Source: an uncultured Clostridia bacterium
GTDB lineage: Bacteria; Bacillota; Clostridia; Christensenellales; UBA1242
Direction of reading: 5' to 3'
Length of the DNA stretch: 45,658 nucleotides
Assembly: GCA_947626155.1 (NCBI GenBank)
Contig: CANQRC010000004.1
Coordinates: 1-45,658 of the forward strand
The position numbers were made by a program, and so were the translations under genes. Under the pieces are notes generated by a model. The model searched no databases, was not told where the DNA came from, and worked only from the letters and a program-made list of their open reading frames with translations. Shown here piece after piece: positions 1 through 20,751 of the stretch. The first letter of the stretch is position 1. The number at the start of each line of letters is the position of its first letter.

Positions 1-2865
1 CATATCAGCCTCTGGCATAACAATTGAGATACATCCTTTGTTTCCGTAACGGCCACTCATTTTGTCGCCGACAGAGATTTTTCTCTTTTGAGCAATGAAA
101 ACTTTTACAAGTTCGTTTACGCCAGGCTCAAGTTCGTCTTTATTTGCACGTGAGAACACTTGAACATCCACAATAACGCCGCCCTTGCCGTGTTGAACAC
201 GAAGTGAAGTGTCGCGGACTTCTCTTGCCTTTTCGCCGAAGATAGCACGAAGAAGTCTTTCTTCTGGTGAAAGTTCCGTCTCACCCTTTGGAGTAACCTT
301 TCCAACCAAGATGTCGCCAGGCTCAACCTCAGCACCAATTCTAATAATTCCGTTTTCGTCAAGGTTTTTAAGTGCGTCCTCGCCAAGGTTTGGAATATCT
401 CTTGTGATGACCTCGTCGCCAAGTTTGGTTGTTCGGCATTTAAGTTCTTCCACTTTCAAACAGATTGAGGTGAACACGTCGTCTTTAACCAATCTTTCGT
501 TGATGAGGATGGCGTCTTCGTAGTTGTAGCCCTCCCAGTTCATATAGCCAACAAGCACGTTCTTTCCAAGTGCAAGTTCGCCATTTTCTGTGGAGTAGCC
601 GTCAATGATAACTTCGCCTTTCTTCACCTTTTCGCCCTTAACTACGCAAGGTTTCTGGTTGAAGCAGGTTTCGTCATTGGTTTTATCAAATTTAATAAGG
701 TTATATATATCAATATTTCCGTTTATATTCTTAACTCTAACTTCGTCAGCGCTGACATAAACAACTTCGCCGTCCTCTCTTGCAAGAGTTGTGTAGCCGC
801 AGTCATGCGCGACCTTTGCCTCCATGCCCGTTCCAACAATTGGGGCTTCGCTGCGAAGAAGAGGCACTGCCTGACGCTGCATGTTTGCGCCCATAAGCGC
901 TCTGTTTGCCTCGTTGCTGTTTACAAATGGAATAAGGCTTGTAGCAACCGAAATAAACTGTCTTGGAGAAGCGTCCACAAAGTCAACTTGGCTTGCTGGA
1001 ACATCCAAAGCGTAGTCTTTATGGCGGCACATAACTCTCTTATTTATAAACCTGCCCTCTTCGTCAAGAGGCTCAGTTGCCTGAGCAATGTAAGCCTCAT
1101 CCTCAACGTCAGCCATGAAGTATTCGCACTTGTCCGAAACTTTTCCTGTGGCCTTGTCAACTCTTCTGTAAGGGGTTTCAATAAAGCCATATTCGTTAAT
1201 TTTTGCGTAACTTGTAAGTGTGTTAACAAGTCCAATAGCCTGTCCTTCTGGGGTTTCAATAGGGCAAATTCTGCCGTAGTTTGTGTAGTGAATATCACGA
1301 ACTTCTGCGTCTGCTCTTTCCTTCTTAATTCCGCCAGGGCCAACAGCCGAAACACGGCGCTTTTGAGTTATTCCAGAAAGTGGGTTAACTTGGTCCATAA
1401 GTTGGGAAAGTTGGGAAGATGCCACAAAGTCGCGAAGCGCGCGGTTGATAGCCTTTGGATTTATGATTTGTCTTGGAGTAACCTCAGAAAGCTCCTTGCC
1501 CTGCAGGGTTTCTCTGATGTTTGCAACAAGTTTTGTGACGCCAGAGCGGAAGTGGTCATAGAAAAGTTCTCCAACAGTGGCAATTCTCTTATTTGAAAGG
1601 TGTTCAATTTTGTCGGTCTTGCAAATATCTTCCAAAACGTCAAGATACATGCTCATTGATGCCAAAATGTCGTCCATTGTAAGGGTCATAACCATGAGGT
1701 CTTTGGCGTGTTCTTTGATTGCCTGCATTCTCTTTTCTTTTGTCTTGTTGTCTTTAAGAATTTGGGCAAGCACAGGATAATAAACCTCTTCCAAAATTCC
1801 AAGGCTCTTTTCGTCGCAAGGGAAAACGGCAGAAAGTTTAACGCGGTTATTTCCTCTCATCAAATATTTTTTATCCGTGAGTTGAATCCAAACTTCGTTT
1901 ACGCCCGAAGCCTTAATCTTTTGGCAAATGTCAGGCTCGGCAACCGTTCCAGCCTTGGCAATAAGTTCTCCGTCAGGAGAAACAACATCCTCAGCCAAGA
2001 TATGCCCCTCAATTCTTCTTGCAAGGGAGAGTTTTTTGTTTAAGTTGTATCTTCCAACTCTTGAAAGGTTATACCATTGGTCAGAGAAGAACCAAAGGTT
2101 CAAATAACTTCTTGTGGTTTCAGCGGAAGGCACGTCAGCAGGACGAGTTTTTCTTGCAAATTCCAAAAGTGCCTCTTCCTGAGTGTTTTGAGTTTCTTTT
2201 TCAAGCACGTTTTTGATAAGCCTATGTCCGCCGAAGAGTTTTAAAATTTCGTCAGCGGTGTAGCCGAAGCATTTGAGGAAAAGCCCAAGTGTGATTTTGT
2301 GTTTTCTATCAAGCACAACCTTCAAAACTTCGTTTGCGCCCTGTTCAAATTCAATATACATTCCCCTCTTTGGGATGATTTGCCCGTGAAGAGTGGTGTT
2401 GTCTCTTTGTTTGTCACGAACAAGATAGTAGTTTGGAGATTTGATAATTTGGTTTACCACAACTCTTTCAACGCCATTGAAAATGAAAGAGCAATCCTCG
2501 GTCATGTAAGGAATGTCGCCCAAGAACACAACATCTTCAACTGCTTGTCCAGTTTCCTCAACAACAAAGCGCGTTTTTACGTTGAGTGGAATAGAATAAG
2601 TGGCACTTCTTCTTTTGCACTCTTTCTTTGTGTATTTTGGAACTTTGTCAATGACAGGCTCTAGAAAATAGAGCTTTGCCTTTCCAGAATAGTCAACAAC
2701 AGGAGAAAACTCATCAAGGACTTCCTTGATGCCGTTGTCAATAAAATCTTGATAAGAGTTATTTTGAATTTCAAGAAGTGGTGGAATGTCGATATAATCT
2801 TTGAGTTGAGCAAAGGTATATCTCTCAGTTTTTCCAAATTTTTGTTTTTTCATGAATGTGGACAT
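1..2865 (-). CDS. rpoB: DNA-directed RNA polymerase subunit beta, partial (C-terminus beyond window start)
   Basis: Manual minus-strand translation from ATG at 2865 (RBS AAGGAG): MSTFMKKQKFGKTERYTFAQLKDYIDIPPLLEIQNNSYQDF..., rif region SSQLSQLMDQVNPLSGITQKRRVSAVGPGG, GRICPIETPEGQAIGLV, GDKMSGRYGNKGCISIVMPEADM. Exactly 955 codons, open at base 1, so absent from the ORF track. Confidence 0.97.
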   Translation of the reverse strand, partial: MSTFMKKQKFGKTERYTFAQLKDYIDIPPLLEIQNNSYQDFIDNGIKEVLDEFSPVVDYSGKAKLYFLEPVIDKVPKYTKKECKRRSATYSIPLNVKTRFVVEETGQAVEDVVFLGDIPYMTEDCSFIFNGVERVVVNQIIKSPNYYLVRDKQRDNTTLHGQIIPKRGMYIEFEQGANEVLKVVLDRKHKITLGLFLKCFGYTADEILKLFGGHRLIKNVLEKETQNTQEEALLEFARKTRPADVPSAETTRSYLNLWFFSDQWYNLSRVGRYNLNKKLSLARRIEGHILAEDVVSPDGELIAKAGTVAEPDICQKIKASGVNEVWIQLTDKKYLMRGNNRVKLSAVFPCDEKSLGILEEVYYPVLAQILKDNKTKEKRMQAIKEHAKDLMVMTLTMDDILASMSMYLDVLEDICKTDKIEHLSNKRIATVGELFYDHFRSGVTKLVANIRETLQGKELSEVTPRQIINPKAINRALRDFVASSQLSQLMDQVNPLSGITQKRRVSAVGPGGIKKERADAEVRDIHYTNYGRICPIETPEGQAIGLVNTLTSYAKINEYGFIETPYRRVDKATGKVSDKCEYFMADVEDEAYIAQATEPLDEEGRFINKRVMCRHKDYALDVPASQVDFVDASPRQFISVATSLIPFVNSNEANRALMGANMQRQAVPLLRSEAPIVGTGMEAKVAHDCGYTTLAREDGEVVYVSADEVRVKNINGNIDIYNLIKFDKTNDETCFNQKPCVVKGEKVKKGEVIIDGYSTENGELALGKNVLVGYMNWEGYNYEDAILINERLVKDDVFTSICLKVEELKCRTTKLGDEVITRDIPNLGEDALKNLDENGIIRIGAEVEPGDILVGKVTPKGETELSPEERLLRAIFGEKAREVRDTSLRVQHGKGGVIVDVQVFSRANKDELEPGVNELVKVFIAQKRKISVGDKMSGRYGNKGCISIVMPEADM

Positions 2866-2887: not shown

Positions 2888-2926
2888 AAGACTCCTTCGG
2901 CAAGAAAAACTCGCCAAAAAAGTCCT
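2888..2926 (-). promoter_or_regulatory. Hairpin followed by U7 in the rpoB 5' leader (attenuator-like)
   Basis: Minus strand AGGACT-TTTTT-GGCGAG-TTTTT-CTTGCC-GAAGG-AGTCTT then T-run; both stems pair (with G-U wobbles). Confidence 0.4.
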
Positions 2927-3056: not shown

Positions 3057-6000
3057 CTAGTTAAATGCAACCGCCGAACCGTAATTTGTGAGGTAAATTT
3101 GCATGGTCTCGCTATTCAATTCAAATTCAACCTTTGCCGAATAAGAGCATTCGCTAGCGCTGAACACATTCTCGTGAACAATAGGCTTGTGTTCGTCCGA
3201 ACTTGTGTGTTCCAAAACAACTTGCTCTCCTCTTAGCGCCGTCTGAATTGACTCTGTCCAATTCTCATTTGCTCCCACGCTTTTAATTGAAGACTTTCCT
3301 GTTATGGAAGAATTTGAATTATCAACATTGTGAGAATATTTAGATTGATTCAAGCCAATTATTGCGCCCAAGTTATAAGAAGCCAAATTGAGCGAATAAA
3401 CCCTAATTTCCATTGAAGCCTCAATGTTAAATTCGTTTCTCACAATTTTTTCATCTTGTATCTTTGTTGCTGTAAGTTTTACAGTGGCCCCTTCGCCAAC
3501 AACTCCCACGAGTCCACCTACGCCGGCCTCTGCAACAGTCAAACCCGTGGCTTTAAGTGAAGCGGAAACATGAATGTCAGCAAAACTTACTCCGCCCGTC
3601 AAAATAGTTCCGCCTACAACGCCTCCCACAAATTCCGTTCCAACAATTGAAATAGAATCAACTGTCACATCCGAAATTGAGGCGCTTCCAACAATCTTTC
3701 CAGCAAATCCGCCAATGTATTTTATTCCTCTTCCTGTGGATATGTCTGTTTCAAAAGGTCTTGTGGAGGTTGTGCTGGCAAGAATATTTTGAGAAACATA
3801 AACTCCTGTCACCTCGCCCGAGTCAATTGTTCCTGCAAAGCCGCCAACGGACTCTGGAACATAAGAGGTTGTCTCAAATGGATTTGAAACGGCAGCCAAG
3901 CCAAACACTTTCACGCCCGAAACATTGCCCCTAGATTGCCCCACAAAAAGCCCTGCAGTTTGTGAGTAAGTTGTAACACGCGTTTCTTCTTGAATATAAA
4001 TTGTCATGTCTTTAACGGTAACACCAGTGTCAATAAGCCCAAACATCAAGCCAACTTTTCCGCCTGTAACGCGAATTTCGTCTTCCAGTTTTGAGAACTT
4101 AATTGTTCCGCTTCCTGTTGCCACGCCAACCAAAGCACCGGCATATGAATATTCGTCAAGAAGAGAGGAATTTTGATTGAAGTTGTTCCCTGCTAAATTT
4201 GGCAAAAATCTTGCTTTTGCAGAGGCAGTTGAGTTGATGTGTGCCATCTCATAATTCCCAACTGCAAGACCAATTACGCCGCCAACAATGTTTGCGCCTT
4301 GCACGGTTATACCACTTTCAGGCAAAACATCCACGTTGAACACTTTTCCGCCATAAAGCCTACCCGCCAAACCACCAACAACGGTGGCATTTGGGAAGTT
4401 TACTTCATTTGGAGTTAAGGTCATGTTCATGACAACGCCAACAGAACTTATGTCGCTGCTTCCAATCTCTGCAAACAGCCCCGCATAGTTTTGTTTGTTG
4501 TTTGAAACAAGTTTAATGTCGGCAATTTCCATATGATTGCCCTCAAAATATCCCAAGAACTTCGTGCTTGAAAGGGCGCTGTTGTCACTGTTTTCGTCGT
4601 ATCTAATGTCAGAAATCAGCCTGTAATATGCTCGGTTTATGTTTACAGAATTGTTTTGTCTTACAACATATTCTTCCAAATCCGTTGCACTGCCAATAAG
4701 AATTGGGTTGTGAATTGCGCCAAGAGCCTCGCAAACTGTTGTATCATAAACATAGTTATAAACAACATTTTCTGCGCCTGTCTCTGGGTCAACAACCGAC
4801 TCAACACTGTCAAGGTTTCGTCTAGAGAACGCAATTATGTTTGGAGAAACAAGTTCCAATCTATTTTTGTTAAACACCGTAGTCCCAAAGTCTCTTGACC
4901 CTGCGTTGCCGTCATTATAGAACCAAACTGCATTTGCGCCTTTTGTGGTCTGATAACTATATGCGTCAAACAGGCTTGTAAAGTCGTCATTTGGGTCAAC
5001 TTGCGCGTCACCCTCTGTGGTCACTTGCTCGCCAAGTTCAAACTGTTTAAGAGTTAATGGCAAAATGATTGCGTTAGGGTCATCCTCAAGGTTTCCAATG
5101 TTCACATTCACGCCATCACTTGTGTCCCCGTTTCCGTCTGGGTCAGGGTCTTGCAGGAAATAGCAATTTGTGATCTTTCCGCCCTCAACATCTTCTGTGT
5201 CAAGTTCGTTAAAGCCCGCAAAGCCATAGCCAGAGTCGTTTCGGTTGTTCAAAACGCTCCAAGAAATGCACCTATCAATTGTGCCCGAATTGGTTATTGT
5301 AAAGCCAGCAACATAAGAGCCGTTTCCCTCCATGTTTATGTTTGTGTAGCAGTCATTTATGACGCCCGAGTTTTCATAAACAAAGCCTGCAATGTTGTTG
5401 TTTGCGTGAAGCGTGTTTTGTGTGCCCTTATAATAAACATCATCTGCGTTTGCCTGTCCGCTAACATAAGAAGAATAAATTTCTCCCGAGTTTTCAATAA
5501 CAAAGCCAGCGGTAAGTTCGGTTGTGCCAAGCGTGTAGTTATACAAACTGCCGCCCTTGTAATAGCAGCCCGCAATTTTGCCCGAGTTGTTTCCCACAAT
5601 GCCGGAAAGGTTGACATTTGCAGATATGTTCAAGTCAGAACGTGAGTTTGTGATAAAGCCAGAGTTTGCCGCGGCAATGCCGGAAACATATGATGCTGAA
5701 ACTGCCTCCGTGCCTCTATAAACCACCGAAAGTGTATGGCCGTTTGACTTAATCACTGCGTTTGCAATTGTTCCCTCGTTCGCCGCTGTCAAAAGTCCTA
5801 TATTATAGGTAGGAGTGTTCACATTTATTGTAACATCTTTTGTTAGGCTGATGGTCATGTTCTTTATAATACAGTTCTCTCTGACCGTGGCAAAAATTCC
5901 AATGTCTGTCAGGTCAGTCATGTTATACTCTCCACCCATGAGAATTTCATAACCATTTCCATCAAACCCTGCAATCTGTGATGTCAAAGGCATAAACTGA

Positions 6001-9000
6001 GAAGTTTGTTCCGCAGTTGCCTGCTCTGTGTTTCTTAAGGTTATGTCGTTTAAGAGGATATACCACTGATTTGAGCCCATGTTCATAAATTCGTCAACTT
6101 TTTCAATTGGCAGAGGGCTTTCCTCTGTGCTCTGCTCATTTACATCAAACGAAAATTCAGTGTAAAATCTGTCAGTTCCAATTGAAGTTGAAGAGTAGAT
6201 GTATGTGCCGCCGTCCATGAGATAATAGCCCGAAACTGAGAAGTGATAGATGTTTGCCGTGTGATTATAAACACGGAGAGGCGTGATTGTCAGCCCGTCA
6301 GCTAGGAAGAAATTCGACCTGTAAGTTTGAGTTTGATTTCCTAAATTAACATCAGGCAAGCCGCTTTCATAAACTGTCCAAACAACTTGGCTTGTCATTC
6401 TTGAAACAAAGTTGTTGACATTTTCAACCACGGCTTGATTGTTCTTGTCATATTCAAGAAAATCAGTAATGGCAAGTTCAAGGGTGTATGGGTTTCCAAT
6501 AGTGTTTGTGATGACGCCGTTTTCCATTCCCCTGACAACATCTTCGTTTACACCCTCGGTGTAGTCATAGTTCATAACAAAGTCCATGACGCAAAGTTTA
6601 AGACTGTCATCAAAAGTTATTCTAACATTGTCCACAATCTTGAAAGCGGAAGTGGTAATTGTCACATAAAGTCCAGGATAACCTTGTTGATAAATGATAA
6701 CATCTGGCGAAATTTGAAGCCTAATTGCTCCGTTTTCCTCAACAACATTTGCAACTTTGGTGTTGGAAGAAGTCATTGTAATTTGCTCTCTTTCAAAGCC
6801 GAAAGAATCCAAAATCAGGCTGTATTCAAGCCCGCGCGCAACATAATAGGTGTTGTCAATGGCATTTTTGCTTGCAAACCTAAGTCTTGCATAGCTTCCA
6901 AGCCTTGTGTAATACATCCTGGTTTCTCTTATGGTTTCTTTGTTTTCTCCGCCATGGACAACAGCAATATCAAATCCCACTGGCACTTTGTCGCTTACGC
7001 TGCTTGCAGGCATAATGTAAGAAATGTAAACTTTTCCGCGGTATCTTGCATCACCTTGCTTATTTAAGAAGTTGATCATTTGCTCATATGTGAATGTCAG
7101 CGAGCCGTCTCTGTAAAGCCCAAAGTTTGGAACGGTCTCATAAACAACACTCCCGTTTTCGTCACTGGTTTCATAAGCAAAGGACAAGGAGATTTCCGTT
7201 GCGCCCTGCTGATAATTTGCGGCGTTGTTTGAAATTGTAAAGGTGTCAAACACGGCCTCAATTGGGTCAAGCGTAACTTCCAAAAGCCCTCTTTGAGATG
7301 GCACAACAACCTCGGCTGTGGTTGAAACATCGTTGATGTTTGAGTAGTTGTTTATGCCAATAAATTTAAGTTCTGCCTCGTCAACATAAACTCTTGTAGA
7401 ACACATCACAGTTGTGCCGTTGTCGTCAATTTTGCTTGAATGAAATTCCAAAATATATTCGCCATAAATTGGGTTTAAATAGCGGTTTTTATATTTGTCG
7501 CTTGTTTGATTTATTGCGCAAACATAACTATATTGTTTGCCCGAAGTTTCTTTAAATGTAAAATCAAACAAATCATTGTTGGTTTCGTTGTTAACATAGT
7601 TTTTCCAAGCATCAATGCTGTTTTGTTCAACTCTTCTGCTTTGAACCGAATTTGGGTCTGTTTGTCCGTTTACAACCTTGTGAATTTCATAATAAACAAA
7701 TTCCACATCGTTTGTCGAGACAATTTCAACATAATCCTCAAAATTTTGATTTGTGGTAATTCTGTGAAGCGTAGAGCCCGTGAAAACTCTTTCTGGACTT
7801 TCTTTGTAGGTCAGTGGCAAGTTGGATAATTTTGCGCCGTCAAGTTCAAACACATAAACTTGTCCCTCAACTTCCACCCTCAAAACAGGCGTAAGAGAAT
7901 AGTTATCAACTGCGTTTTCCACTTCTGGTTTTTTTGTCTTATAAAAGATTACAGTCTGCCCGTCCACCTGCGTCCTTGAGAAACTTCCCTCTTTTGGATC
8001 AACGTCAACGGTGAGGTCTGTATTTGGATTTAGAATATAGTTCTTTCCCTGATAGTTAAGGATGCCGTCTTGTGAAATTGAGAATTCCTTTCCGTCAACG
8101 TCACGAGTTGTCTCGCACAAATAACTTGGTCTAAGATACAATTTAGACTTCTTGTCTCCGCGCAATACATAACTTGTATTGTCGTCAACAACGCTTCCGT
8201 TTATGTTGTTGTCGGCAAAGAACAGCGAAGAGTTTATGTCCTTTTTAAAGTAATTTACAGCCAAAATGTATATTGTCTTTGTTTTGATAACATTCAAAAT
8301 GCTTGAGACATTGAGTTTCGCAAGCCCAGTATTTTTAACTGTTATGTTTGCCGAAACATCCACATTCAAAACGCTTGAAGAGCCAGAAATTGTGATGTCT
8401 GGGTCCAAGTCCAAAGTGCCGCCTGCTGGCTTCAGTGGGTGGAAGTCAGAATTTGTGGTTATGTAGTTGAGCCTTGAAATTTCGTCTTGCGCGTAGCCTG
8501 CCTCCTCAACGCCTACAACGCCTTGAACAGAGAAGTAATACATAAAGAACACATCAACTCCGCTTGCGCCGTCGCTGCTTGACAATTTGAAAGGCGTTTC
8601 TTTTCCAATATTTAGTTCAACTTCTTTGTGTTCAAAAACAAACGAAGAAACATAAGAAATTTTATCAACTGTTTTGTTGACAATCAAAATGTCGCCATAG
8701 AACTTGTCTGTATCTGGGCTCTTTTGGTCAAGTTCGGCGCCGCCGTTTTTTTCTTGCAATGTTCTAGCAAGATAAGATGCCGTTTCAAAAGTGAAAGCGT
8801 CATATTTTCTATCATTTCTATAGGCATTCCCAACAATTCCTGCCACAACAATTTGTTCGTTCAAAAGACCTTGTCGTTGATTTTTAAGACTTTCATCATC
8901 TGGGCTATCTTTTAACTTTTCGTCCAGAGCGTCAATTTTATCTTGAATTGTGTCCAAAAGCCCCGCCCCGTCATTTGTAAGCCCGTCTTTGGCCTGTCTG

Positions 9001-12000
9001 ATAATCATTGAACTTTCAAATATTCCGCCGCCAATATCAACAGCCTCAATTGTGTTTCCGCCAACAGATTGTCCTTTTTCGCTTGAGTAATAAACATTGC
9101 TGCTTCCTTCACTGCTGTGATAATTTTCATAGCCAACAACCGCGCCAACATCGTCAAAACCGCGGAGGAAAGTTCTAATAGTGTTGTTTGAAACAAAGAT
9201 GTCTCTGTTTATGCTTGTAAGCGAGTCTGCATAGCCAACAACTCCCCCAACGCCGCTTGCAGTGCGCGTTCCTGTCACATCAATTGAATCAATAATTCCG
9301 CCCACAAGCAAATTGTCAAGTGCAAAAGAAGTTTGCACTGCCGCCTCGTTGTTCTCTGCAATTTCATTTGGAAGAAGTGAGCCTGTTGCAACATAAGTCA
9401 AAACTCCTGCCACGCCGCCAACATCAACATTTCCATTTGTCTGGCCTGTCACCTTTAAAAGGGTGTAAGAAGTATATTTTGAATAGCCCAAAAGCACCAA
9501 TTCGCCATCTTCAATTCTCTTTATGCCTGAATTTGTTGCCCCAACAACGCCGCCGGCATAAACGTTTCCGCCGTTTGTGTTGATGTTCACATAGTCGTCA
9601 TAATAAGCCATAATTTTTGTTGTTTGCCCAGCAAAATTTTCGGCTTCACGAAGAGGCAAGAAGTATTCAACAACACTGCCCTCTTTGTTGACAGACACTT
9701 TTTTAAATGGAACTTTTTCGTTCTTTTGGTTTACAACATAATATTTTGTGTTGCTGTGTTCGTCAACAACAAACTGGTCTTTGCTGACAAAATATGTGTA
9801 AGATGTGTTATTAACTGTTTCGGTGAAATATTGTCCGCCAAGCCCGTCATCTTGCAACCTTCCATCTTTTTCACTGTCGTAAAGCCTAAAATAGGTTTTT
9901 TCATCATATTTTTCAAAGTTTTGGGTAAGTTGCCCAAAATTAAGCCCTGCCACTGTGCCAAAATAAACAGTGCTGTTTCCAGCATTTATGCTAGAAGCCC
10001 TCGAGCCTTTTTCAATTCTCGTGGCAATGTTCACAAGTGAGCCCTGATTTATTGCCGCCAAAAGCCCAACATAGGCGGTTCCGCTCAATGACAAACTATT
10101 AAATCTGCCCGAGAAGGACACATTTTCAATTGAAGGCAACTCATAGGTGACTTCAGTGCTTCCAACCACATCTGTTTGCGAAGGATTTTGGTTTATTTTT
10201 GCAAAAAGTCCAGCATAAACCTTTCCGCCAACAACCGCCTTGAAATTGGTGTCAGAAATTATAATGTCTGTGATTGAGGCTTGGGAAGTTGTTCCAACAA
10301 TTGTTCCGCTGAAGCCCACAACTTTTCCGTCAACAATTCCAATTGGCGTGGCGTTATTTACTGCCGCCATGCTTATTCTTTCACGCAGTTCATAGTGGCT
10401 TGAAAGTTTTATGTCATTCTTTCCAATATCCAAAACATCTTGAGCCGACCTCAAAAGATAAGGGTTCAGCCTGGAGCCATTTCGATATTGAATGTTAAAG
10501 CAAACAGGATTTTGTGACGAGTCAAGAGAAGTGTAAGAAGTTCCCCACTCGGCAGGATAAATGTAAAGTTTGCCGCTTAAATCTGCGTTAATATTTGTAA
10601 TTTGGTCTTTGTATCTTTCAAAGAACTCTTCAACCGAAAGCGCAATTGTATAAATTCCGTTTCGTCTTTGGGAATCATCAACTGTGTAGGTGAGCATTGA
10701 AGCACTGTATTCGTTTGTTGCATTTGGAATAAATTCTATTCTAATAGAGTTATCTGTTGCGTAAGTAGGATTTGTCAAAACGCCAACCGTCTGCACGAGG
10801 TTTTCGTTTGAAAAATCAATGTCTGCGCTTCCAGACACCCTAGAGATGGTTTTAACTTCAACATATTCTTGAGGAACAATGGTTGCGTCATATCTTTTTG
10901 TGAGGTTTGGCTGTTTTAAAAATGCGCTCAAAACAAAAGGATTTTCCCCAATGGTTTCAAGATAAGATAAAGAGTATTTAAATTCAAAGTTGTCTGGATT
11001 ATAAATTAAAGAGCCAAAACTTCCTGTTTTAAATTCGTTTGACCACTCCGTCCCTCTTTTGAAGTCCACCTCATATTCGTCTCCGTCAAATCCATATGTT
11101 GCTCGTTCTGGCAGATAGAACATAAGCCCTCTGCTTATTGTGAATACAACAGTTTTTGCCAAGCTATCCTCGTCGTTCTTTACTATTCTCATCCTAAAAC
11201 TTACGGCAATTGGTCCCATAGAGTTTGCAATATTGAAATAAACATAATTTTTGTCATAACCTGTTTCGTTGTATTCAAGTTTAATCACGCTATCTTGCTC
11301 GGCGATATTAACGCCCTCTTCATAAGTATAAATTCCGTCTTCGCCGCCACTGCAGTTATCATAAATTCTTGAAATAGACTCGCCGTCCAAAGTGTATCTA
11401 TAGAAATTGGTTGAATTTTCATTGAAAACATTTGGCGTCAATTCCACGGAATAAGAACTGATGCTTCCGCCATAATAAACGGTGTTTGAAAGCGCATAAG
11501 CGTCACCATTTTTCAAATAGAACTCTGAGACAAGAGAATAAGAACTTACATGAATTTTGAAGAGCAAAGATTTTCTTGCCTCCGCAAAGCCATTTGCAAT
11601 TGCAGGCCCGCTGAGGTCAAATTCAAGGTCACACGCCCCATTTATTCTGGTTGTAAGGGTGAAAGTCCAATTTGCCCTATTGGCTGTAACAGAAACAATT
11701 TCATTTGAAGATGGATAAACAACAGAATCATAATTTCCTTTGAATGTAAAGGAAACTGTGCTGCCATAAACGACCTCATCTTTTGATGAAGGGTTTAAAA
11801 TTTCTAGGTTTATGCAGTCTTGATAGTTCAAATCCTCTGCACTAGAAGAAAATTCCGCCTTTGTAACCGCGCTGTTTCCCGTGCTTGTAAATTGAAAAGC
11901 CGTCGTCTCTTCTTTCAAAAGCCTTGTGCAATGAAAAGTCAGCCCGCGGTAGGATGTGCCGTTGTCAAGGAAGAAGTCATACACGCCGTCGCCAAGCCTT

Positions 12001-13937
12001 AAAGGCGTTATCTCCAAATTCAAATAATATTTAACTTCGCCCTCTTCATGTTTTGAGGCAAAACCATTTGTGTAAATTGTTCTAAAACTTAAAATGTTTG
12101 TTCCGCCCCTAAATTCAACCCTAACATCTTTAAAGTTTGCGTTTGCATACAAAACATTGTCAAAAGGCGTCATTCTTCTTTCATAGTCAACAAACAGTTC
12201 GTTCCCTTTTTCAGGGTTTATAAATTGGCTTTCAAGCCTAACTTCGCTTGCGCCATCAATTATGTTTACTTTGATTTCTCTAATAATTTCGTCAACACAC
12301 TCGCCAGTTTCGGCATTATAAATTATTCCCTTGCTAACTGCATGAACTTTAATAAATAAAGGTCCTTTGGCAACGGAATTTGCCGTTCTAACTCTAAAAT
12401 CACCGTTCCAATTTGTCAAAAGGTTGTTTTCCCCATAAACGCCTAAGCTTGTGCTGCCAATCACTGCGTCAAGGCCGTCATCAACCTCAAACCAAAGCCC
12501 GTCAACCTTTGGCAGGCTGCCATAACTTGAAACGACATCAATAGAAAAGTTTACATATCCGTTTGGATAAATTTGGTCGTCATATACATTATAAACTTCA
12601 AGCGCCACATCTTCATTTTCCAGCCCATTTACGCGAATGCTTTGAGGTGCAATCACAATTTTAACATTAAAATTCTGATTTCTGTTTACACTTTCGTCGC
12701 CAAAAATTTGTTTTGCAACTTCATAAAAAATGTTTAAGCCAACAGTAACTTCGTTTTGTTTTTGCGTGCTTTGTGAAATTTTCCAATAAGAAATAACATT
12801 TCCCTCTTCGTCAACTTTGTCCTCGGTGTCCGCAGGGTTTTCATAAAATCTATCAAAATCCACAAAATTTGTGTCCTGGAATTTTTGAATTCCAACAGGG
12901 GTATCAGCGTCAATTCCAGTCATCTGCACTTTTATAATAAAGTCTGTCATTTTAGGGTTATTTGGAACAATTAAAACATCAGCGTCTTTGTCATTGAGTG
13001 GCGTGAATGTTGTCTCTTCCAAAGTCTGATTGCTGTTCATATCAAAATAAGCGCCAAAAAAATTTACATTTAAACTTGGCAAAATGTTTACAGGAACAAC
13101 TTGAGAGATGATATTCTTTTCGCTTTGAAGAGATGGCTGATAAATTGCCAAAATTCTAAATTTGCTTTGACTTACAAACAGTTTGTAGTCCACATCCGTT
13201 GGACTAAGGCTCTTCTGCTGCTGCCCTCCCAAAGTAAACTCAAGCGTTTCGCCAACAAGTTCTGCCCTGTCAAATGCGATAAGGTTCACATGAACATCTC
13301 TGTTCACATTATTGGTCAAGGTTGCCGTTCCGCTTTCCAAATCTAAGTCTTTAACATTCTGCAAATTGTCAACATTTGCCGACTCAACATCTTTTTGAAT
13401 GAGAAAATATGAAACATCTTTTTCGGTTGTGTTGCTGTCAAAATTGAATATGCTTGAAGTTGGAACAAACGCTGTTCCGCCCTTGTTTTCATCTCCGCCG
13501 GAAACATATAACACATCTCCGCCATAACTCATTGTCTTTGAGAATTGCCTTACATCAACCCGAACAGAGCTTTCTTTCGAGCCGTCCAAAAGCTTGACAA
13601 CAAGCTCGGCAGACCCGCCGCTGACAGCAGTTACATTCACGCGAATTCTTGTTTGAGAGATATAAGAATATGTATAGTCAAAAATTTTGCCTTCGCCGCC
13701 GCGTTGCGCAACACTGATTGCGTTGCTTAAGCCGTTCTGATAGCCGTTTATGTCAAAAAGAACACTTGTGCTGCCCAGTTCCTCATCATCTACGGTGAGG
13801 TTGATGCCCTCGGGATGGTCATTTGTCAAATAGACCTTGCCATAGTCCACCCCGCAGCCGGCAAAAAACACCCCTGCAAACAACATTGCAAAGATGCCAA
13901 TCAGCGCTATTAAGGTGTTCCTAACAACTTTTGCCAT
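3057..13937 (-). CDS. Giant secreted lipoprotein (3626 aa) with GLUG-like repeat blocks
   Basis: ORF 3057..13937; signal peptide and lipobox MAKVVRNTLIALIGIFAMLFAGVFFAG-C; recurring GGVVGYADS / GGLAGRLYGG / VGGVIGLAVG / GALVGVATG motifs and 'NPxLIxSAxDL' block starts; RBS AGAGGAGAGGT. Confidence 0.9.
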   Translation of the reverse strand: MAKVVRNTLIALIGIFAMLFAGVFFAGCGVDYGKVYLTNDHPEGINLTVDDEELGSTSVLFDINGYQNGLSNAISVAQRGGEGKIFDYTYSYISQTRIRVNVTAVSGGSAELVVKLLDGSKESSVRVDVRQFSKTMSYGGDVLYVSGGDENKGGTAFVPTSSIFNFDSNTTEKDVSYFLIQKDVESANVDNLQNVKDLDLESGTATLTNNVNRDVHVNLIAFDRAELVGETLEFTLGGQQQKSLSPTDVDYKLFVSQSKFRILAIYQPSLQSEKNIISQVVPVNILPSLNVNFFGAYFDMNSNQTLEETTFTPLNDKDADVLIVPNNPKMTDFIIKVQMTGIDADTPVGIQKFQDTNFVDFDRFYENPADTEDKVDEEGNVISYWKISQSTQKQNEVTVGLNIFYEVAKQIFGDESVNRNQNFNVKIVIAPQSIRVNGLENEDVALEVYNVYDDQIYPNGYVNFSIDVVSSYGSLPKVDGLWFEVDDGLDAVIGSTSLGVYGENNLLTNWNGDFRVRTANSVAKGPLFIKVHAVSKGIIYNAETGECVDEIIREIKVNIIDGASEVRLESQFINPEKGNELFVDYERRMTPFDNVLYANANFKDVRVEFRGGTNILSFRTIYTNGFASKHEEGEVKYYLNLEITPLRLGDGVYDFFLDNGTSYRGLTFHCTRLLKEETTAFQFTSTGNSAVTKAEFSSSAEDLNYQDCINLEILNPSSKDEVVYGSTVSFTFKGNYDSVVYPSSNEIVSVTANRANWTFTLTTRINGACDLEFDLSGPAIANGFAEARKSLLFKIHVSSYSLVSEFYLKNGDAYALSNTVYYGGSISSYSVELTPNVFNENSTNFYRYTLDGESISRIYDNCSGGEDGIYTYEEGVNIAEQDSVIKLEYNETGYDKNYVYFNIANSMGPIAVSFRMRIVKNDEDSLAKTVVFTISRGLMFYLPERATYGFDGDEYEVDFKRGTEWSNEFKTGSFGSLIYNPDNFEFKYSLSYLETIGENPFVLSAFLKQPNLTKRYDATIVPQEYVEVKTISRVSGSADIDFSNENLVQTVGVLTNPTYATDNSIRIEFIPNATNEYSASMLTYTVDDSQRRNGIYTIALSVEEFFERYKDQITNINADLSGKLYIYPAEWGTSYTSLDSSQNPVCFNIQYRNGSRLNPYLLRSAQDVLDIGKNDIKLSSHYELRERISMAAVNNATPIGIVDGKVVGFSGTIVGTTSQASITDIIISDTNFKAVVGGKVYAGLFAKINQNPSQTDVVGSTEVTYELPSIENVSFSGRFNSLSLSGTAYVGLLAAINQGSLVNIATRIEKGSRASSINAGNSTVYFGTVAGLNFGQLTQNFEKYDEKTYFRLYDSEKDGRLQDDGLGGQYFTETVNNTSYTYFVSKDQFVVDEHSNTKYYVVNQKNEKVPFKKVSVNKEGSVVEYFLPLREAENFAGQTTKIMAYYDDYVNINTNGGNVYAGGVVGATNSGIKRIEDGELVLLGYSKYTSYTLLKVTGQTNGNVDVGGVAGVLTYVATGSLLPNEIAENNEAAVQTSFALDNLLVGGIIDSIDVTGTRTASGVGGVVGYADSLTSINRDIFVSNNTIRTFLRGFDDVGAVVGYENYHSSEGSSNVYYSSEKGQSVGGNTIEAVDIGGGIFESSMIIRQAKDGLTNDGAGLLDTIQDKIDALDEKLKDSPDDESLKNQRQGLLNEQIVVAGIVGNAYRNDRKYDAFTFETASYLARTLQEKNGGAELDQKSPDTDKFYGDILIVNKTVDKISYVSSFVFEHKEVELNIGKETPFKLSSSDGASGVDVFFMYYFSVQGVVGVEEAGYAQDEISRLNYITTNSDFHPLKPAGGTLDLDPDITISGSSSVLNVDVSANITVKNTGLAKLNVSSILNVIKTKTIYILAVNYFKKDINSSLFFADNNINGSVVDDNTSYVLRGDKKSKLYLRPSYLCETTRDVDGKEFSISQDGILNYQGKNYILNPNTDLTVDVDPKEGSFSRTQVDGQTVIFYKTKKPEVENAVDNYSLTPVLRVEVEGQVYVFELDGAKLSNLPLTYKESPERVFTGSTLHRITTNQNFEDYVEIVSTNDVEFVYYEIHKVVNGQTDPNSVQSRRVEQNSIDAWKNYVNNETNNDLFDFTFKETSGKQYSYVCAINQTSDKYKNRYLNPIYGEYILEFHSSKIDDNGTTVMCSTRVYVDEAELKFIGINNYSNINDVSTTAEVVVPSQRGLLEVTLDPIEAVFDTFTISNNAANYQQGATEISLSFAYETSDENGSVVYETVPNFGLYRDGSLTFTYEQMINFLNKQGDARYRGKVYISYIMPASSVSDKVPVGFDIAVVHGGENKETIRETRMYYTRLGSYARLRFASKNAIDNTYYVARGLEYSLILDSFGFEREQITMTSSNTKVANVVEENGAIRLQISPDVIIYQQGYPGLYVTITTSAFKIVDNVRITFDDSLKLCVMDFVMNYDYTEGVNEDVVRGMENGVITNTIGNPYTLELAITDFLEYDKNNQAVVENVNNFVSRMTSQVVWTVYESGLPDVNLGNQTQTYRSNFFLADGLTITPLRVYNHTANIYHFSVSGYYLMDGGTYIYSSTSIGTDRFYTEFSFDVNEQSTEESPLPIEKVDEFMNMGSNQWYILLNDITLRNTEQATAEQTSQFMPLTSQIAGFDGNGYEILMGGEYNMTDLTDIGIFATVRENCIIKNMTISLTKDVTINVNTPTYNIGLLTAANEGTIANAVIKSNGHTLSVVYRGTEAVSASYVSGIAAANSGFITNSRSDLNISANVNLSGIVGNNSGKIAGCYYKGGSLYNYTLGTTELTAGFVIENSGEIYSSYVSGQANADDVYYKGTQNTLHANNNIAGFVYENSGVINDCYTNINMEGNGSYVAGFTITNSGTIDRCISWSVLNNRNDSGYGFAGFNELDTEDVEGGKITNCYFLQDPDPDGNGDTSDGVNVNIGNLEDDPNAIILPLTLKQFELGEQVTTEGDAQVDPNDDFTSLFDAYSYQTTKGANAVWFYNDGNAGSRDFGTTVFNKNRLELVSPNIIAFSRRNLDSVESVVDPETGAENVVYNYVYDTTVCEALGAIHNPILIGSATDLEEYVVRQNNSVNINRAYYRLISDIRYDENSDNSALSSTKFLGYFEGNHMEIADIKLVSNNKQNYAGLFAEIGSSDISSVGVVMNMTLTPNEVNFPNATVVGGLAGRLYGGKVFNVDVLPESGITVQGANIVGGVIGLAVGNYEMAHINSTASAKARFLPNLAGNNFNQNSSLLDEYSYAGALVGVATGSGTIKFSKLEDEIRVTGGKVGLMFGLIDTGVTVKDMTIYIQEETRVTTYSQTAGLFVGQSRGNVSGVKVFGLAAVSNPFETTSYVPESVGGFAGTIDSGEVTGVYVSQNILASTTSTRPFETDISTGRGIKYIGGFAGKIVGSASISDVTVDSISIVGTEFVGGVVGGTILTGGVSFADIHVSASLKATGLTVAEAGVGGLVGVVGEGATVKLTATKIQDEKIVRNEFNIEASMEIRVYSLNLASYNLGAIIGLNQSKYSHNVDNSNSSITGKSSIKSVGANENWTESIQTALRGEQVVLEHTSSDEHKPIVHENVFSASECSYSAKVEFELNSETMQIYLTNYGSAVAFN

Positions 13938-13954
13938 ACCTCTCCTCTAAAATT

Positions 13955-16651
13955 TTAGTTAAACAGTTGTTTTACATATTCAAGAGCATTGATTTGCACG
14001 GTTGTTCTTGAAGTTGGCCCCGTGATTAAGAAGCCTTGACCGACGCCGGCAGTGACAATTGAGTTTTGTTCTTCCTCATTTATTCCGCCGGACTTTTCAT
14101 AAAGTTGAACGAGGTCATTGATATCACTTGGAGAAAGCGAGAAAATAAGTGAATATTGGCAGGCGTTAATAACCGCAGTTGACTGCCTCTTAATTTCATC
14201 CGAGCCCACAAAGTCGGAAATGTTTTGAGTGATGACAATCTGCATTCCGCCATATTTTCTGATACGTTTTGCCATTTGCGCCATGAAGTCCAACGCAATT
14301 GGGTATTTTGGATTGATGAAGATATGCGCCTCATCAACCGCAATGATAATTTTTCTGTTTTTGCGATATTTTCTGTTGAAATCCTTGTTGTTGATGATTT
14401 CATTGTTCAAATATCTAAACACAAGAAGCATTTGTGCGTTTGTAACTTGGGCGTTGTTTCCCGCAACCAAAGATTGGAAGTTGAATGTAACAAAGTTTTC
14501 GTTTGTTTCGATTGATGTCGGTCCGTTCCAAAGAGAACTGTTTCTTCCGCCCGTTGCAAATTTCTTAATGTAAGTTTCAACGGTCATAAGGTTTCTAAGC
14601 GTAAATTCGTCTCTTGCGGTTTTAATTCTTTCCAAAATAAGGTTGTAAAGGTCGTCAAAGGTTGGATAATCCTCAGGCTTAAGTTTTGCAAGTTTTGTTC
14701 TATAATCAATGTTATGTTTTTTATACATATCAATAATAAGCGAGTTCAAAACTTCAAACGCGTCAGAATTTATTCCCTCCAAAATAACTCTAAAAAATTG
14801 CTCCAAGAATTGTAAGTGCTGAGAGAAACTGTCGTCTGCAACCTCTTCTTTTGGTGCTTTTTCAATCAGTCTGCCATAGTCGTCATACTCTTCCTCTTCT
14901 TCCTCTTCGTCTTCACTTGCTTCCAAAGAGGAAATAACGTGGAAAGGATTGATAATTCCGTGAGTTGAAGAGCCAACATCAATAAACTTTCCACCCAAAT
15001 TGTTTGTCAAATCTTGATATTCGTTTTCCGGGTCAAGAATGAATATTTTGCAGTTGTCGGCGGCAAAATTCGTAAGAAGTGTCTTTGTGGCGTAACTCTT
15101 TCCCGAGCCAGATTTTCCAATGACCATCATGTTAGAGTTAACTCTTTCGCGGTCACGCTTAAAGAAGTCCACAAAAACGGGATATTCGTTGTCGCCAATA
15201 TAAATTCCATTAGGGTCTTGAAGTGCGTTTGAAATAAATGGGAATGTTGCGGCAAGCGTGGAAGTTGGAATTCCTCTCAAACTGTTTTTTACGCTGTCTC
15301 TTTTTGAGATGTTTGAAGAGATAAAGCCGTCAATTTGCCTTGAAAACAACTCGGAATATTTAAAGCCTTGTTGTTTAAGCATTGCGCGAACATCTTTCTT
15401 CGCGGCGTCCTCCGCCACAAGATAAGTGTTGACATTGTAAAGTTGTTGGTTGTTGTTTTTAAGGTTTGCCAAAAGTTCTCTCAAAGTGTCAACGTGGGTT
15501 TGCAACTCAATCTGTGTGGAACTTCTGCCCGCCTTATAAAGTTTTGTCTCCATTTCCATGATGGCCTTATCAATTTGCTTTTCAGATTCAAGTTTTGGAA
15601 TTGGATTAAACTTCATGTGAACTCTTGTTCTGTCCAAAAGGAAGAATTGTGCGCCCCAAGCGTTTCCAACTTGCAAAGGATAGTCAACAAGGTTAAAGCA
15701 GCGGTAGCAAGTGTCGTCAACAAAGAAACGACCAATATTAAATCTTATCTTGTTTGGCAAAGCCCAATTTAGGTGTTCCGTGATAGGCAAAACGTCCAAA
15801 TCTCTTTCATCAAAATCCTTCCCAAGGGTGGATTTCAAAAAGACCATAAGGTCATTGCCCGTCACAAGGTTTGCGTTGATAGGGTTCAACGAAGACGCCA
15901 TGGCGGAAATCATGCCCTTTGTTGTCGTTTCAAGAATTTCCCTATCCTTGTCATACACAACAATATAAAAGTGGTCTTTAAACACCTTTGACTGCCTGTT
16001 CATCATCTCATAAAGCGAAACCCTTTCCTCAAAAATAGGTGAGCGCGCGTCAATTTCCTCTTGGGTAATTTGGCCGTCATATTGCATATCATACAAAACA
16101 TCAAACTTGGCGTTTTCATTGTGAATGTAGTTGTCCAAAATCATAGGCTTTGAAATTTTGATAATTGAACAAGTTTGGTCCATGTTCAAACGCCTGAGTG
16201 CATTTGCAAAACTTTCAATAACGTTGTCTTGATAATATTCCGTCAAAAGCGTGAAGAACATTGGCTGAATTTCAATGACCTGAGCATAATAAATCCCAAA
16301 ATTTATAAACCTGTCTTGGTAAACGCCCTCAAAAGGAATCATTTGTCTGATGGAAGACTTCCCGTTTTCGTCGTCGTCATCTTTACCCTTGACAAACTTT
16401 TTCTTTTGGGCGGAATATCTCAAAAGAAAAACGAGAGTGTTGTAAAATCTTACATCATCTGCAAGCTTAAAAAACATTGAAACGGCAATTATGCACCAAG
16501 CAATGCCAATCCAAATATGTAATTCAAAATTTGCCAAAAACAAAAGAATGGCAATCGCCGCAAAAATGAACCCCAAAATCAGGTCCAACCCGGTGACGCC
16601 TCTTACAAACTCGGCTTTTACTTTGGTTCTTCGTGGAATAACTCTTACCAT
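13955..16651 (-). CDS. VirB4/TraE-family conjugation-type ATPase with N-terminal PrgI-like transmembrane segment
   Basis: Walker A VIGKSGSGKSYATKTLL, Walker B KIIIAVDEAH, ITQNISDF motif, two N-terminal TM helices (LDLILGFIFAAIAILLFLANFELHIWIGIAWCIIAVSMFF). Confidence 0.88.
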   Translation of the reverse strand: MVRVIPRRTKVKAEFVRGVTGLDLILGFIFAAIAILLFLANFELHIWIGIAWCIIAVSMFFKLADDVRFYNTLVFLLRYSAQKKKFVKGKDDDDENGKSSIRQMIPFEGVYQDRFINFGIYYAQVIEIQPMFFTLLTEYYQDNVIESFANALRRLNMDQTCSIIKISKPMILDNYIHNENAKFDVLYDMQYDGQITQEEIDARSPIFEERVSLYEMMNRQSKVFKDHFYIVVYDKDREILETTTKGMISAMASSLNPINANLVTGNDLMVFLKSTLGKDFDERDLDVLPITEHLNWALPNKIRFNIGRFFVDDTCYRCFNLVDYPLQVGNAWGAQFFLLDRTRVHMKFNPIPKLESEKQIDKAIMEMETKLYKAGRSSTQIELQTHVDTLRELLANLKNNNQQLYNVNTYLVAEDAAKKDVRAMLKQQGFKYSELFSRQIDGFISSNISKRDSVKNSLRGIPTSTLAATFPFISNALQDPNGIYIGDNEYPVFVDFFKRDRERVNSNMMVIGKSGSGKSYATKTLLTNFAADNCKIFILDPENEYQDLTNNLGGKFIDVGSSTHGIINPFHVISSLEASEDEEEEEEEYDDYGRLIEKAPKEEVADDSFSQHLQFLEQFFRVILEGINSDAFEVLNSLIIDMYKKHNIDYRTKLAKLKPEDYPTFDDLYNLILERIKTARDEFTLRNLMTVETYIKKFATGGRNSSLWNGPTSIETNENFVTFNFQSLVAGNNAQVTNAQMLLVFRYLNNEIINNKDFNRKYRKNRKIIIAVDEAHIFINPKYPIALDFMAQMAKRIRKYGGMQIVITQNISDFVGSDEIKRQSTAVINACQYSLIFSLSPSDINDLVQLYEKSGGINEEEQNSIVTAGVGQGFLITGPTSRTTVQINALEYVKQLFN

Positions 16652-16660
16652 AACAACCTC

Positions 16661-16680
16661 TTGTAGTTATGATACTACAA
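16661..16680. promoter_or_regulatory. Perfect dyad (operator-like) overlapping putative -10 of the virB4-like/lipoprotein operon
   Basis: TTGTAGT-TATGAT-ACTACAA, 7-bp perfect arms; minus strand TTGTAT-N18-TATCAT promoter-like sequence overlaps it. Confidence 0.45.
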
Positions 16681-16847
16681 ACCAAAGCAAAAATACAAAT
16701 AAAATGCGCAAAAAACAAAAATAAATATTTATTATTATATATTTTCAACATTTTCCCTCGGGGTTTAAAATTCGACAACAAACAGCAATAAATTATTTTT
16801 TAGGAATTTATTTTTTTAAAAATTCAAAAAATTGATAAAAAAATCAA

Positions 16848-16895
16848 AAAAATAGCAAAAAAATTGAATAAAAACCTAATTTTTTGCTATTTTTC
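16848..16895 (-). terminator. Intrinsic terminator downstream of the PRC-barrel gene
   Basis: AAAATAGCAAAAAAATT...AATTTTTTGCTATTTT hairpin with T-tract. Confidence 0.6.
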
Positions 16896-16902
16896 ACAAT
16901 TT

Positions 16903-17565
16903 TTATCTTTTTATGGCAAAGAAAAGTTGATTTAATTTGTTGTGTCTTTTTGCCTTCTCAAACACCGCTTTTGTGATGACTTCATTCTTCAAAACAATCT
17001 TTTCATTGTTGTAGCCCAAGATGTCCTGTCCGCATATTTTGCCAATGTAAAAGTTGGCTGAAAGGTTTATCTTTTCCGGCCCAGAAACCTTTGGAAAATC
17101 TTGAATGGAAACAACCTCTTCTATGTTCGTTCTAGGAAAAGTCCTTGAAAGTTGGGCGCGCTTTTTCTTAGTTTGAATAAAAACAACATCTTCCCCAACC
17201 TCGCTTACAAACTTTGGCAAAATTTCGCACTTGTCAGTTACAATTTTTGTTATTTTCTGTTTTTGAAACTCCAAATTTTTAATGCAGCCCAAATCCTGGA
17301 AGTTCTCATCCAACACTTGTTTGCCAAGCAGCCCCCTCGTTCTTTGGGCGGTAAATTGCATTGCCCCAACCTCGCCAATCACCACATATTCATCAGTGGC
17401 CATAAGCACATCCTCGCTTTTGACAAAAAACTCACTTTCCGTCTCATCGTCAACCACATAATATCCAACTTTCTTCATGGAAGAAAAATCCAAGGCCACA
17501 TCCAGCACAAAGCCCACTCTTTTGCCCGCACTTTTGTCCAAGACAATCTTTGAAATGTTTTCCAT
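16903..17565 (-). CDS. PRC-barrel domain protein
   Basis: Start trimmed to MENISKIVLDKSAGKRVGFVLDVALDF (ATG 17563-17565, RBS GGCGGAGGG); repeated PRC-like segments (GLLGKQVLDENFQDLGCIKNLEF). Confidence 0.75.
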   Translation of the reverse strand: MENISKIVLDKSAGKRVGFVLDVALDFSSMKKVGYYVVDDETESEFFVKSEDVLMATDEYVVIGEVGAMQFTAQRTRGLLGKQVLDENFQDLGCIKNLEFQKQKITKIVTDKCEILPKFVSEVGEDVVFIQTKKKRAQLSRTFPRTNIEEVVSIQDFPKVSGPEKINLSANFYIGKICGQDILGYNNEKIVLKNEVITKAVFEKAKRHNKLNQLFFAIKR

Positions 17566-17629
17566 CAGCCCTCCGCCTATTATTGTGATATGTTGCCTGT
17601 CCAAAAAATATGACAAACCGTCGCGGGAG

Positions 17630-17658
17630 TTGACAAACTTAAAAGAAAGTGCTAAAAT
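17630..17658 (+). promoter_or_regulatory. Putative sigma-A promoter of the DUF1858 gene
   Basis: TTGACA-N17-TAAAAT. Confidence 0.7.
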
Positions 17659-17674
17659 CTTAGCGAGGTGAAAA

Positions 17675-17887
17675 ATGAAAAAATCAAAAATAGTTAAAAA
17701 ACCATACACAAAAGATATGACAATTGGCGAAGTTTTAAAAAGCAACCCAAATTTGGAAGAGGTGTTTTTGGGCTTTGGAATGCATTGCGTAGCCTGCCCA
17801 GTCAGCCAAATGGAAACAGTTGAAGAGGCCAGCGCAGTTCATGGGGTTGATGTTGAATTTCTTCTAAAAAAACTAAACGAAGCATAA
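17675..17887 (+). CDS. DUF1858 domain protein (hybrid-cluster-protein-associated redox disulfide family)
   Basis: 70 aa, TKDMTIGEVLKSNPNLEEVFLGFGMHCVACPVSQMETVEEASAVHGVDVEFLLKKLN with CxxC. Confidence 0.85.
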   Translation: MKKSKIVKKPYTKDMTIGEVLKSNPNLEEVFLGFGMHCVACPVSQMETVEEASAVHGVDVEFLLKKLNEA

Positions 17888-19830: not shown

Positions 19831-20751
19831 ATGAAAACACTAAATTTTTATTTTAAAGATTGCGTAAAAAATGGATATGTTATTGGCGCTTACAACTTCA
19901 ACAATTTGGAAACGCTAAAAGGGATTTGCCTAGGCTGTAAAAAGACAAGTTCGCCAGCAATAGTTGCGCTGAGCGAGGGTGCATTTTCTTATCTTGGCGA
20001 GAATTTTATCAAAAACACCTTTGAAAGCGCAAAAAAAGAGTATAAAATTCCACTTTTTTTGCATTTAGACCACGGAAAAAGTTTTGAAATGTGCAAAAAA
20101 GCCGTTGACCTCGGCTTTGACAGCGTAATGATTGATGCCAGCGCCTTGCCATTTGAAGAAAATGTGAAACTGACAAAAAAAGTTGTTGCTTATGCTCACA
20201 AAAAAGGCGTTTTGGTTGAGGCGGAACTTGGAGTTCTCTCCGGCGTTGAGGACAATGTCAGCGCCCAAGCCGACCACTTCACAAACCCTCAAAAGGCAAA
20301 AGAATTTGTTGAGAAAACTGGTTGTGACACCCTGGCGGTTTCCATTGGCACAAGCCATGGTGCTTATAAATATAAGGGCGAACAAAAAATTCACTTTGAT
20401 GTCCTCAAAAAAATTGAGGCAGAAATTCCAAACACCCCACTTGTCCTGCACGGCGCATCCAGCGTTCCACAAGAATATGTTGAAACAATAAACAAGTTTG
20501 GCGGAAGCATCAAGGGCGCAAACGGAACAAACGAAAGCACCCTCAAAAAACTTGCCACAAAACATCATATTTACAAAATCAACACTGACACGGATATTCG
20601 CCTCTGCTATATGGCAGCCTTGCGAAAATTTTTGTGTGAGCAGCCCGAAGTTTTTGACCCAAGAGTGCCAAATGGCAAGATAATTGAAGAAATTTCAAAA
20701 TTGGTTGAGCATAAAAATAAAAAAGTTTTTATGTGTGAAAACAAAAAATAG
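19831..20751 (+). CDS. fba: Class II fructose-bisphosphate aldolase family protein
   Basis: GAYNFNNLETLKGI, HLDHGKSFEMCKKAVDLGFDSVMIDASALPFEENVKLTKKVVAYAHKKGVLVEAELG, SIGTSHGAYK; RBS AGGAG. Confidence 0.9.
   Translation: MKTLNFYFKDCVKNGYVIGAYNFNNLETLKGICLGCKKTSSPAIVALSEGAFSYLGENFIKNTFESAKKEYKIPLFLHLDHGKSFEMCKKAVDLGFDSVMIDASALPFEENVKLTKKVVAYAHKKGVLVEAELGVLSGVEDNVSAQADHFTNPQKAKEFVEKTGCDTLAVSIGTSHGAYKYKGEQKIHFDVLKKIEAEIPNTPLVLHGASSVPQEYVETINKFGGSIKGANGTNESTLKKLATKHHIYKINTDTDIRLCYMAALRKFLCEQPEVFDPRVPNGKIIEEISKLVEHKNKKVFMCENKK

Follow-up and report, generated by a model that had tools for sequence, protein, structure and literature searches.

The question raised by this locus is what a conjugation-type ATPase of the VirB4 family does beside rpoB, immediately upstream of a giant lipoprotein gene. 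The window (the whole stretch of 45,658 nucleotides that was analysed) had been described in an earlier note as encoding an intact 898-aa VirB4-type ATPase with Walker A and B motifs, ending 17 bp before a 3626-aa lipoprotein on the same strand and next to rpoB. We found both open reading frames as described, virB4 at 13955-16651 and the lipoprotein gene at 3057-13937, on the minus strand. The 17-bp gap (13938-13954, minus strand) holds a purine-rich, RBS-like stretch, gaggagagg, for the lipoprotein gene. Upstream of virB4 are an A/T-rich leader (16652-16902, minus strand), in which the promoter-like matches (16820-16792) are weak and not evidence of function, and a conserved uncharacterised flanking gene (16903-17745, minus strand), which is syntenic genus-wide and whose real start is probably internal, giving a product of about 222 aa. 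On the other side, a strong terminator-like hairpin (2888-2926, minus strand; 17 pairs and a T tract) lies between the lipoprotein gene and the 5' part of rpoB (1-2865, minus strand), a flank outside the system that runs to the window's left end. Because this hairpin divides the lipoprotein gene from rpoB, virB4 and the lipoprotein gene probably constitute a two-gene unit apart from rpoB.

The ATPase matched the VirB4 P-loop_TraG domain over the cut-off (6e-19). Its Walker A motif, GKSGSGKS, occupies residues 512-519, its Walker B motif, IIIAVDEAH, ends at residue 776, and K518, S519 and E774 were invariant across 29 homologues. The AlphaFold model (pLDDT 83) placed the two expected N-terminal transmembrane helices at residues 21-39 and 45-58. 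The N-terminus may be VirB3/PrgI-like: taken alone it matched VirB3 with an E-value of 0.056 (3.6e-4 for the N-terminus of an orthologue), and PrgI matched the N-terminus of another VirB4 orthologue with 0.069, all three being below the cut-off. The top structural matches of the model were 4ag5 and the R388 TrwK/VirB4 of the assembled type IV secretion system (T4SS), with E-values down to 4.5e-26 and an alignment to TrwK/VirB4 over about 860 columns; the structure of a Thermoanaerobacter VirB4 was also a match in sequence. The product of 13955-16651 is accordingly modelled with a full-length VirB4 fold. The NCBIfam model NF045975 (Mbov_0397 ICE ATPase) matched it over its full length with 572.4 bits, below the cut-off of 590, as was also the case for a true ICE VirB4 copy of the genus (562.7 against 590). 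By sequence, this mycoplasma-type ICE ATPase family appears to be the closest to the window VirB4.

The ATPase had been called stand-alone, which is true of the window but not of the genome, a 97% complete assembly of 1.02 Mb in 69 contigs (like all the sequence data used here, a draft MAG). This genome contains a single P-loop_TraG VirB4, and a genome-wide search for VirB6 and VirD4 homologues yielded one of each: contig 14 encodes a VirB6-like protein (860 aa; one strong match) and contig 10 a VirD4 (670 aa; one copy). A VirB2-like pilin (T4SS_pilin, PF18895) is encoded on contig 59. The earlier suggestion of a dedicated partner system elsewhere in the genome was thus borne out, each of the three genes being at a separate site outside the window, and VirB6, VirD4 and the pilin, as expected of a translocating T4SS, co-occur with VirB4 in one genome. 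Within the genus, VirB4 was found in all 37 genomes searched (full-length orthologues with 62-87% identity), VirD4 in 41/41, and VirB6 in 38/41 with scores of at least 39 bits; the other three (G006, G029 and G032) gave no convincing VirB6 match. The pilin gave good scores in nearly all genus genomes, and its family recurred in the 20 genomes examined (20/20), in a largely syntenic block. The VirB4, VirD4 and VirB6 genes of the genus sit in housekeeping contexts. In other genera of the family, VirB6 was present in 12/12 genomes and VirD4 in 11/12, the one in which it was not found being G342. Judged from these sequence matches, the conserved set would be that of a minimal T4SS, consisting of a VirB2-like pilin, VirB6, VirD4, and a VirB4 whose N-terminus may be VirB3-like; mycoplasma ICEs have been reported to do without VirB8 and the VirB1 cell-wall hydrolase (PMC12857230). 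We have little doubt that VirB4 belongs with VirB6, VirD4 and the pilin in a fixed T4SS.

We examined how this system is inherited. An order-wide search (347 genomes) listed VirB4 in 28/28 of the family genomes among those that it returned (48-85% identity), and 31/319 other genomes of the order gave weaker, ICE-type matches, at most 49% identical. In the VirB4 tree, the 45 fixed family copies formed one group (SH-aLRT 99), apart from and next to ICE copies that include those of ICEs visiting the window's own genus. Candidatus Caccopulliclostridium, assigned to UBA1242 by its authors (PMC8035907), nests inside the fixed clade, and the size of the window genome fits the description of UBA1242 (PMC12306168); the family under study is very probably UBA1242. 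A single origin of the family's VirB4 is indicated. The dN/dS of VirB4 (0.024-0.045) was like that of hflX (0.036; Nei-Gojobori estimates, for which some synonymous sites are near saturation), indicating strong purifying selection. Identities of VirB4, VirB6 and VirD4 correlated with that of hflX (r = 0.91, 0.93 and 0.94, respectively) and, taken with hflX and with each other, gave correlations of 0.91-0.95; the VirD4 tree was consistent at and close to the level of the genus, and did not resolve the deep branches. The unlinked T4SS genes appear, then, to have been inherited vertically. These results agree with the earlier proposal that a conjugation-type ATPase was domesticated on the chromosome, as seen from its fixed site in the genus, purifying selection and single-origin clade.

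The arrangement of the genes differs across the family. The basal genera g26, g27, g28 and g30 have a compact cluster, with VirD4 divergent from the pilin(s), a lipoprotein or membrane protein, VirB6 and VirB4. In the derived lineages, VirB4 has moved away from the remaining T4SS genes; g29 retains VirB6 and VirD4 at a distance of about 2 kb from each other. Scattering is the derived state, because the basal genera are compact and the derived lineages have VirB4 relocated. The VirB4 site, with its housekeeping neighbours, is constant across the window's genus; in sister genera VirB4 is at other chromosomal sites, as in Caccopulliclostridium, where it has rnr on one side and smpB on the other (both named from sequence similarity). 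A 509-aa membrane protein of the basal cluster was considered as VirB8-like, and this identity was dropped when a sequence search against the PDB gave no match. In sister genera, genes of about 600 aa directly follow virB4 (L220:5702-7504, L214:5706-7553, L275:10136-11920 and L270:5887-7728), and these, of which the two scanned had no Pfam family, are candidate substrates or accessory factors; post-VirB4 products of 600, 615 and 842 aa had no Pfam match. Further genera have different large genes, apparently cytosolic, in this position. In one 1.4-Mb genome, SpoIIGA and a sigma factor are encoded directly upstream of virB4 (L216:817-2577).

The comparison of sequences thus supports the parts of the system, their conservation, purifying selection, a single origin of VirB4 and an ancestral compact cluster. 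We consider it likely that the window VirB4 serves as the ATPase of a minimal T4SS of the mycoplasma-ICE type that has no relaxase and is passed on vertically, and that this system was fixed in the ancestor of a family of genome-reduced gut Clostridia and later scattered in the window's lineage.

The place of the lipoprotein in this picture is less firm. It has a signal peptide and a lipobox (..FAGC), and other species of the genus have it after VirB4 as well (25 long loci), with a length of about 3,400-3,900 aa where complete (in L045, L052 and L059 it is interrupted by a contig end or a split ORF). Named assemblies supplied 80 loci, in 66 of which the lipoprotein is directly downstream of VirB4, always with a lipobox; the remaining 14, most of them from other genera, have no adjacent lipoprotein or are unreadable. 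The expected synteny of the pair was accordingly found throughout the genus, in 66/66 readable loci, and was absent from the sister genera. There, lipoprotein relatives of about 3,100-3,300 aa are distant from VirB4, several of them adjoining other large surface-like ORFs. The lipoprotein is therefore a surface protein of several genera in the family, joined to VirB4 in the window's genus. It evolves faster than VirB4 (dN/dS 0.09-0.22 vs 0.024-0.045, with the same reservation about synonymous saturation). The window protein had no match over the cut-off in Pfam or NCBIfam and none by sequence in the PDB, and a GLUG motif was present in 7/24 orthologues. Its best conserved part, the C-terminal 1,000 aa, was modelled as all-beta (pLDDT 86, pTM 0.85), with weak fold matches to 3n6z (a putative IgA1-protease-like protein; best E-value, 0.02) and to other beta-helix proteins. 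The protein is probably a beta-solenoid adhesin.

Two readings of the pairing have to be weighed. The adjacency may be a genus-specific rearrangement with no functional meaning, the lipoprotein being independent and only VirB4 taking part in the T4SS. This would fit with the sister genera, which keep the related lipoprotein elsewhere, several near large surface-like ORFs, and in which VirB4 adjoins other genes. It is harder to reconcile with the retention of the pair in every readable locus of the genus, at a median gap of 24 bp (65 related loci) and despite divergence of VirB4 to 59% identity, and with the presence of a lipoprotein in the basal T4SS clusters. We regard this reading as a serious contender, though one that falls somewhat short of even odds. 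The converse, that the lipoprotein works with the VirB4 T4SS, can likewise be put forward only tentatively. Transfer of the ICEA of Mycoplasma agalactiae requires each of VirB4 (CDS17), VirD4 (CDS5) and the surface lipoprotein CDS14, the last probably for cell contact (PMC6030558). This parallel may serve as a lead to the function of the lipoprotein, by analogy rather than homology.

A second alternative concerns what the system transports, namely that the fixed T4SS still moves DNA, by chromosomal donation or exchange or by mobilisation in trans, with an undetected relaxase or none. VirD4 is kept in all genus genomes, visiting ICEs with MobL relaxases could use the fixed T4SS, and mycoplasma ICE T4SSs are known to move chromosomal DNA (PMC12857230). 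We searched for PF03432, MobL (PF18555) and one ICE relaxase. PF03432 was over the cut-off in 2/41 genus genomes and MobL was found in 8/41, while an ICE-type relaxase was present in 13/60 family genomes; the window genome had no match to any of the three. In the compact T4SS clusters that were read, none of the genes was recognised as a relaxase. For the two relaxase families searched, a fixed gene is thus absent, those that occur being sporadic. Furthermore, the resident ICEs supply their own VirB4, VirB6 and VirD4. Their layout is surface protein, pilin, VirB6 and VirB4, to which ICEs of the window's genus add VirD4 and a MobL relaxase upstream. We consider continued DNA transfer unlikely, and on balance favour the view that the fixed T4SS moves something other than the DNA of a mobile element.

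The earlier note had also proposed that VirB4 was repurposed as a dedicated motor for export or assembly of the giant lipoprotein, which the common direction of the two genes and the 17-bp gap might suggest. However, a Sec signal with a lipobox was present in 66/66 loci, sister genera carry the two genes apart from each other, and VirB4 has kept its usual T4SS partners. With signal peptide and lipobox both conserved, this lipoprotein would ordinarily be expected to be exported by Sec/Lsp. We judged the motor highly improbable and rejected it on the grounds of the export signal and the unlinked homologues. That VirB4 is a remnant of an integrative conjugative element is more improbable still: the mycoplasma-type ICE ATPases are its nearest protein family and its closest relatives outside the bacterial family sit in ICEs of the order, but it occupies the same housekeeping site genus-wide, is under strong purifying selection and has a single origin in the family, no relaxase or integrase was recognised near it, and an ICE gene set that was looked for near this copy in relatives of the genus was not there, so that its genus-wide synteny, selection and tree led us to discard this origin.

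If VirB4 indeed belongs to a vertically inherited, relaxase-less T4SS, its components would assemble into a machine, to which VirD4 would recruit protein substrates (less likely DNA); proteins are favoured because of the missing relaxase. The substrates would cross the membrane through VirB6/VirB4 and enter a neighbouring cell on contact. The lipoprotein, which would be exported through Sec and held at the membrane by its lipid anchor, could act as a beta-solenoid adhesin that aids this contact, and in the window's genus its co-transcription with virB4 would cause contact and machine to be produced together. The most likely purpose of the system would be a partner-dependent life. The relatives are uncultured gut Clostridia, for which record titles and sample names suggest rabbit, deer, buffalo, sheep and chicken as sources. 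UBA1242 has been described as a lineage with a reduced genome and sporulation genes, probably an obligate symbiont or parasite, and proposed to live on other cells, possibly via unidentified intercellular connections (PMC12306168, 2025); the text of that paper does not mention secretion or VirB4, and our literature search joining UBA1242 with type IV secretion found no paper. The family-wide minimal T4SS is a concrete candidate for these connections, and may be how these dependent cells connect to others. More speculatively, and with slightly less confidence than we give to a joint role of lipoprotein and T4SS, the whole family may depend on this domesticated, relaxase-less system as a cell-to-cell connection, through which effectors or nutrients would be swapped with partners, either prokaryotes or protists, while giant surface proteins would make the contact, in convergence with Patescibacteria and Rickettsia.

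We compared the system with known ones. It shares with the mycoplasma-type ICE module (Mbov_0395/0396/0397; ICEA) the pilin-like, VirB6-like and VirB4 proteins, which match the NCBIfam models of this module, and also VirD4; the ICEA system includes a surface lipoprotein as well (PMC6030558). It differs in being immobile, vertical and scattered, without an integrase or a fixed relaxase of the families searched, and in the score of its VirB4 (572 against the model cut-off of 590). The nearest analogues appear to be the T4SSs of Rickettsia and Patescibacteria. The Rickettsia archipelago (PMC2653234) is likewise chromosomal, vertical and scattered in islets of a reduced genome, with multiple virB6 copies. 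In one subclade here, three VirB6-like genes stand in tandem (L124, L125 and L126, on G016:C9, G021:C7 and G026:C7), recalling Rickettsia virB6a-e. The present system is, by contrast, of a Gram-positive, minimal mycoplasma-ICE type in which VirB7/9/10/11 were not seen, and its acquisition is unrelated. Patescibacteria (PMC12102498) are partner-dependent bacteria with reduced genomes and chromosomal, monoderm-type, mostly relaxase-less T4SSs with pilins, but VirB3-VirB4 fusions were not reported in them and the component sets are others; the present family belongs to a different phylum and has a mycoplasma-type VirB4 with a possibly VirB3-like N-terminus. For the 89K T4SS of Streptococcus suis, also Gram-positive, there is evidence of protein secretion (discussed in PMC12857230), though it is on a pathogenicity island and neither family-wide nor scattered. 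Whether Gram-positive T4SSs include dedicated translocators is a long-standing question (PMC12857230). Fixed T4SSs in dependent bacteria are thus already known from Rickettsia and Patescibacteria, to which the present family would add another case of a conjugation machine retained by dependents with reduced genomes. New within the literature searched are the lineage, a mycoplasma-type minimal system in such a role, and a set of genera that runs from the compact cluster to the scattered state, along which domestication can be traced.

Some further observations were made. In some species, mycoplasma-type ICEs coexist with the fixed system: L034 and L262 (G002:C1), L033 (G036:C9), L032 (G030:C2) and L263 (G064:C10). 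Downstream of the ICE of G002 lies a tyrosine-recombinase-like gene. A genome from another family of the order has two equally scoring VirB4 copies 25 kb apart (G213:C9:22597-25221 and 47343-49967), which may reflect a tandem ICE or a repeat in the assembly. An uncharacterised 152-aa gene adjoins virD4 (L119:11714-12172) and is kept in several species of the genus. Giant open frames of 12732 aa (G030:C1:27264), 8422 aa (G061:C43:3669) and 7036 aa (G130:C3:124128) sit in genomes of 1.1-1.5 Mb, which have kept very large genes despite reduction. Finally, the window encodes a class II fructose-bisphosphate aldolase (19831-20751, plus strand; Pfam match, 1.3e-87) that is syntenic in the genus, in contrast with the report that UBA1242 genomes are without this enzyme (PMC12306168).
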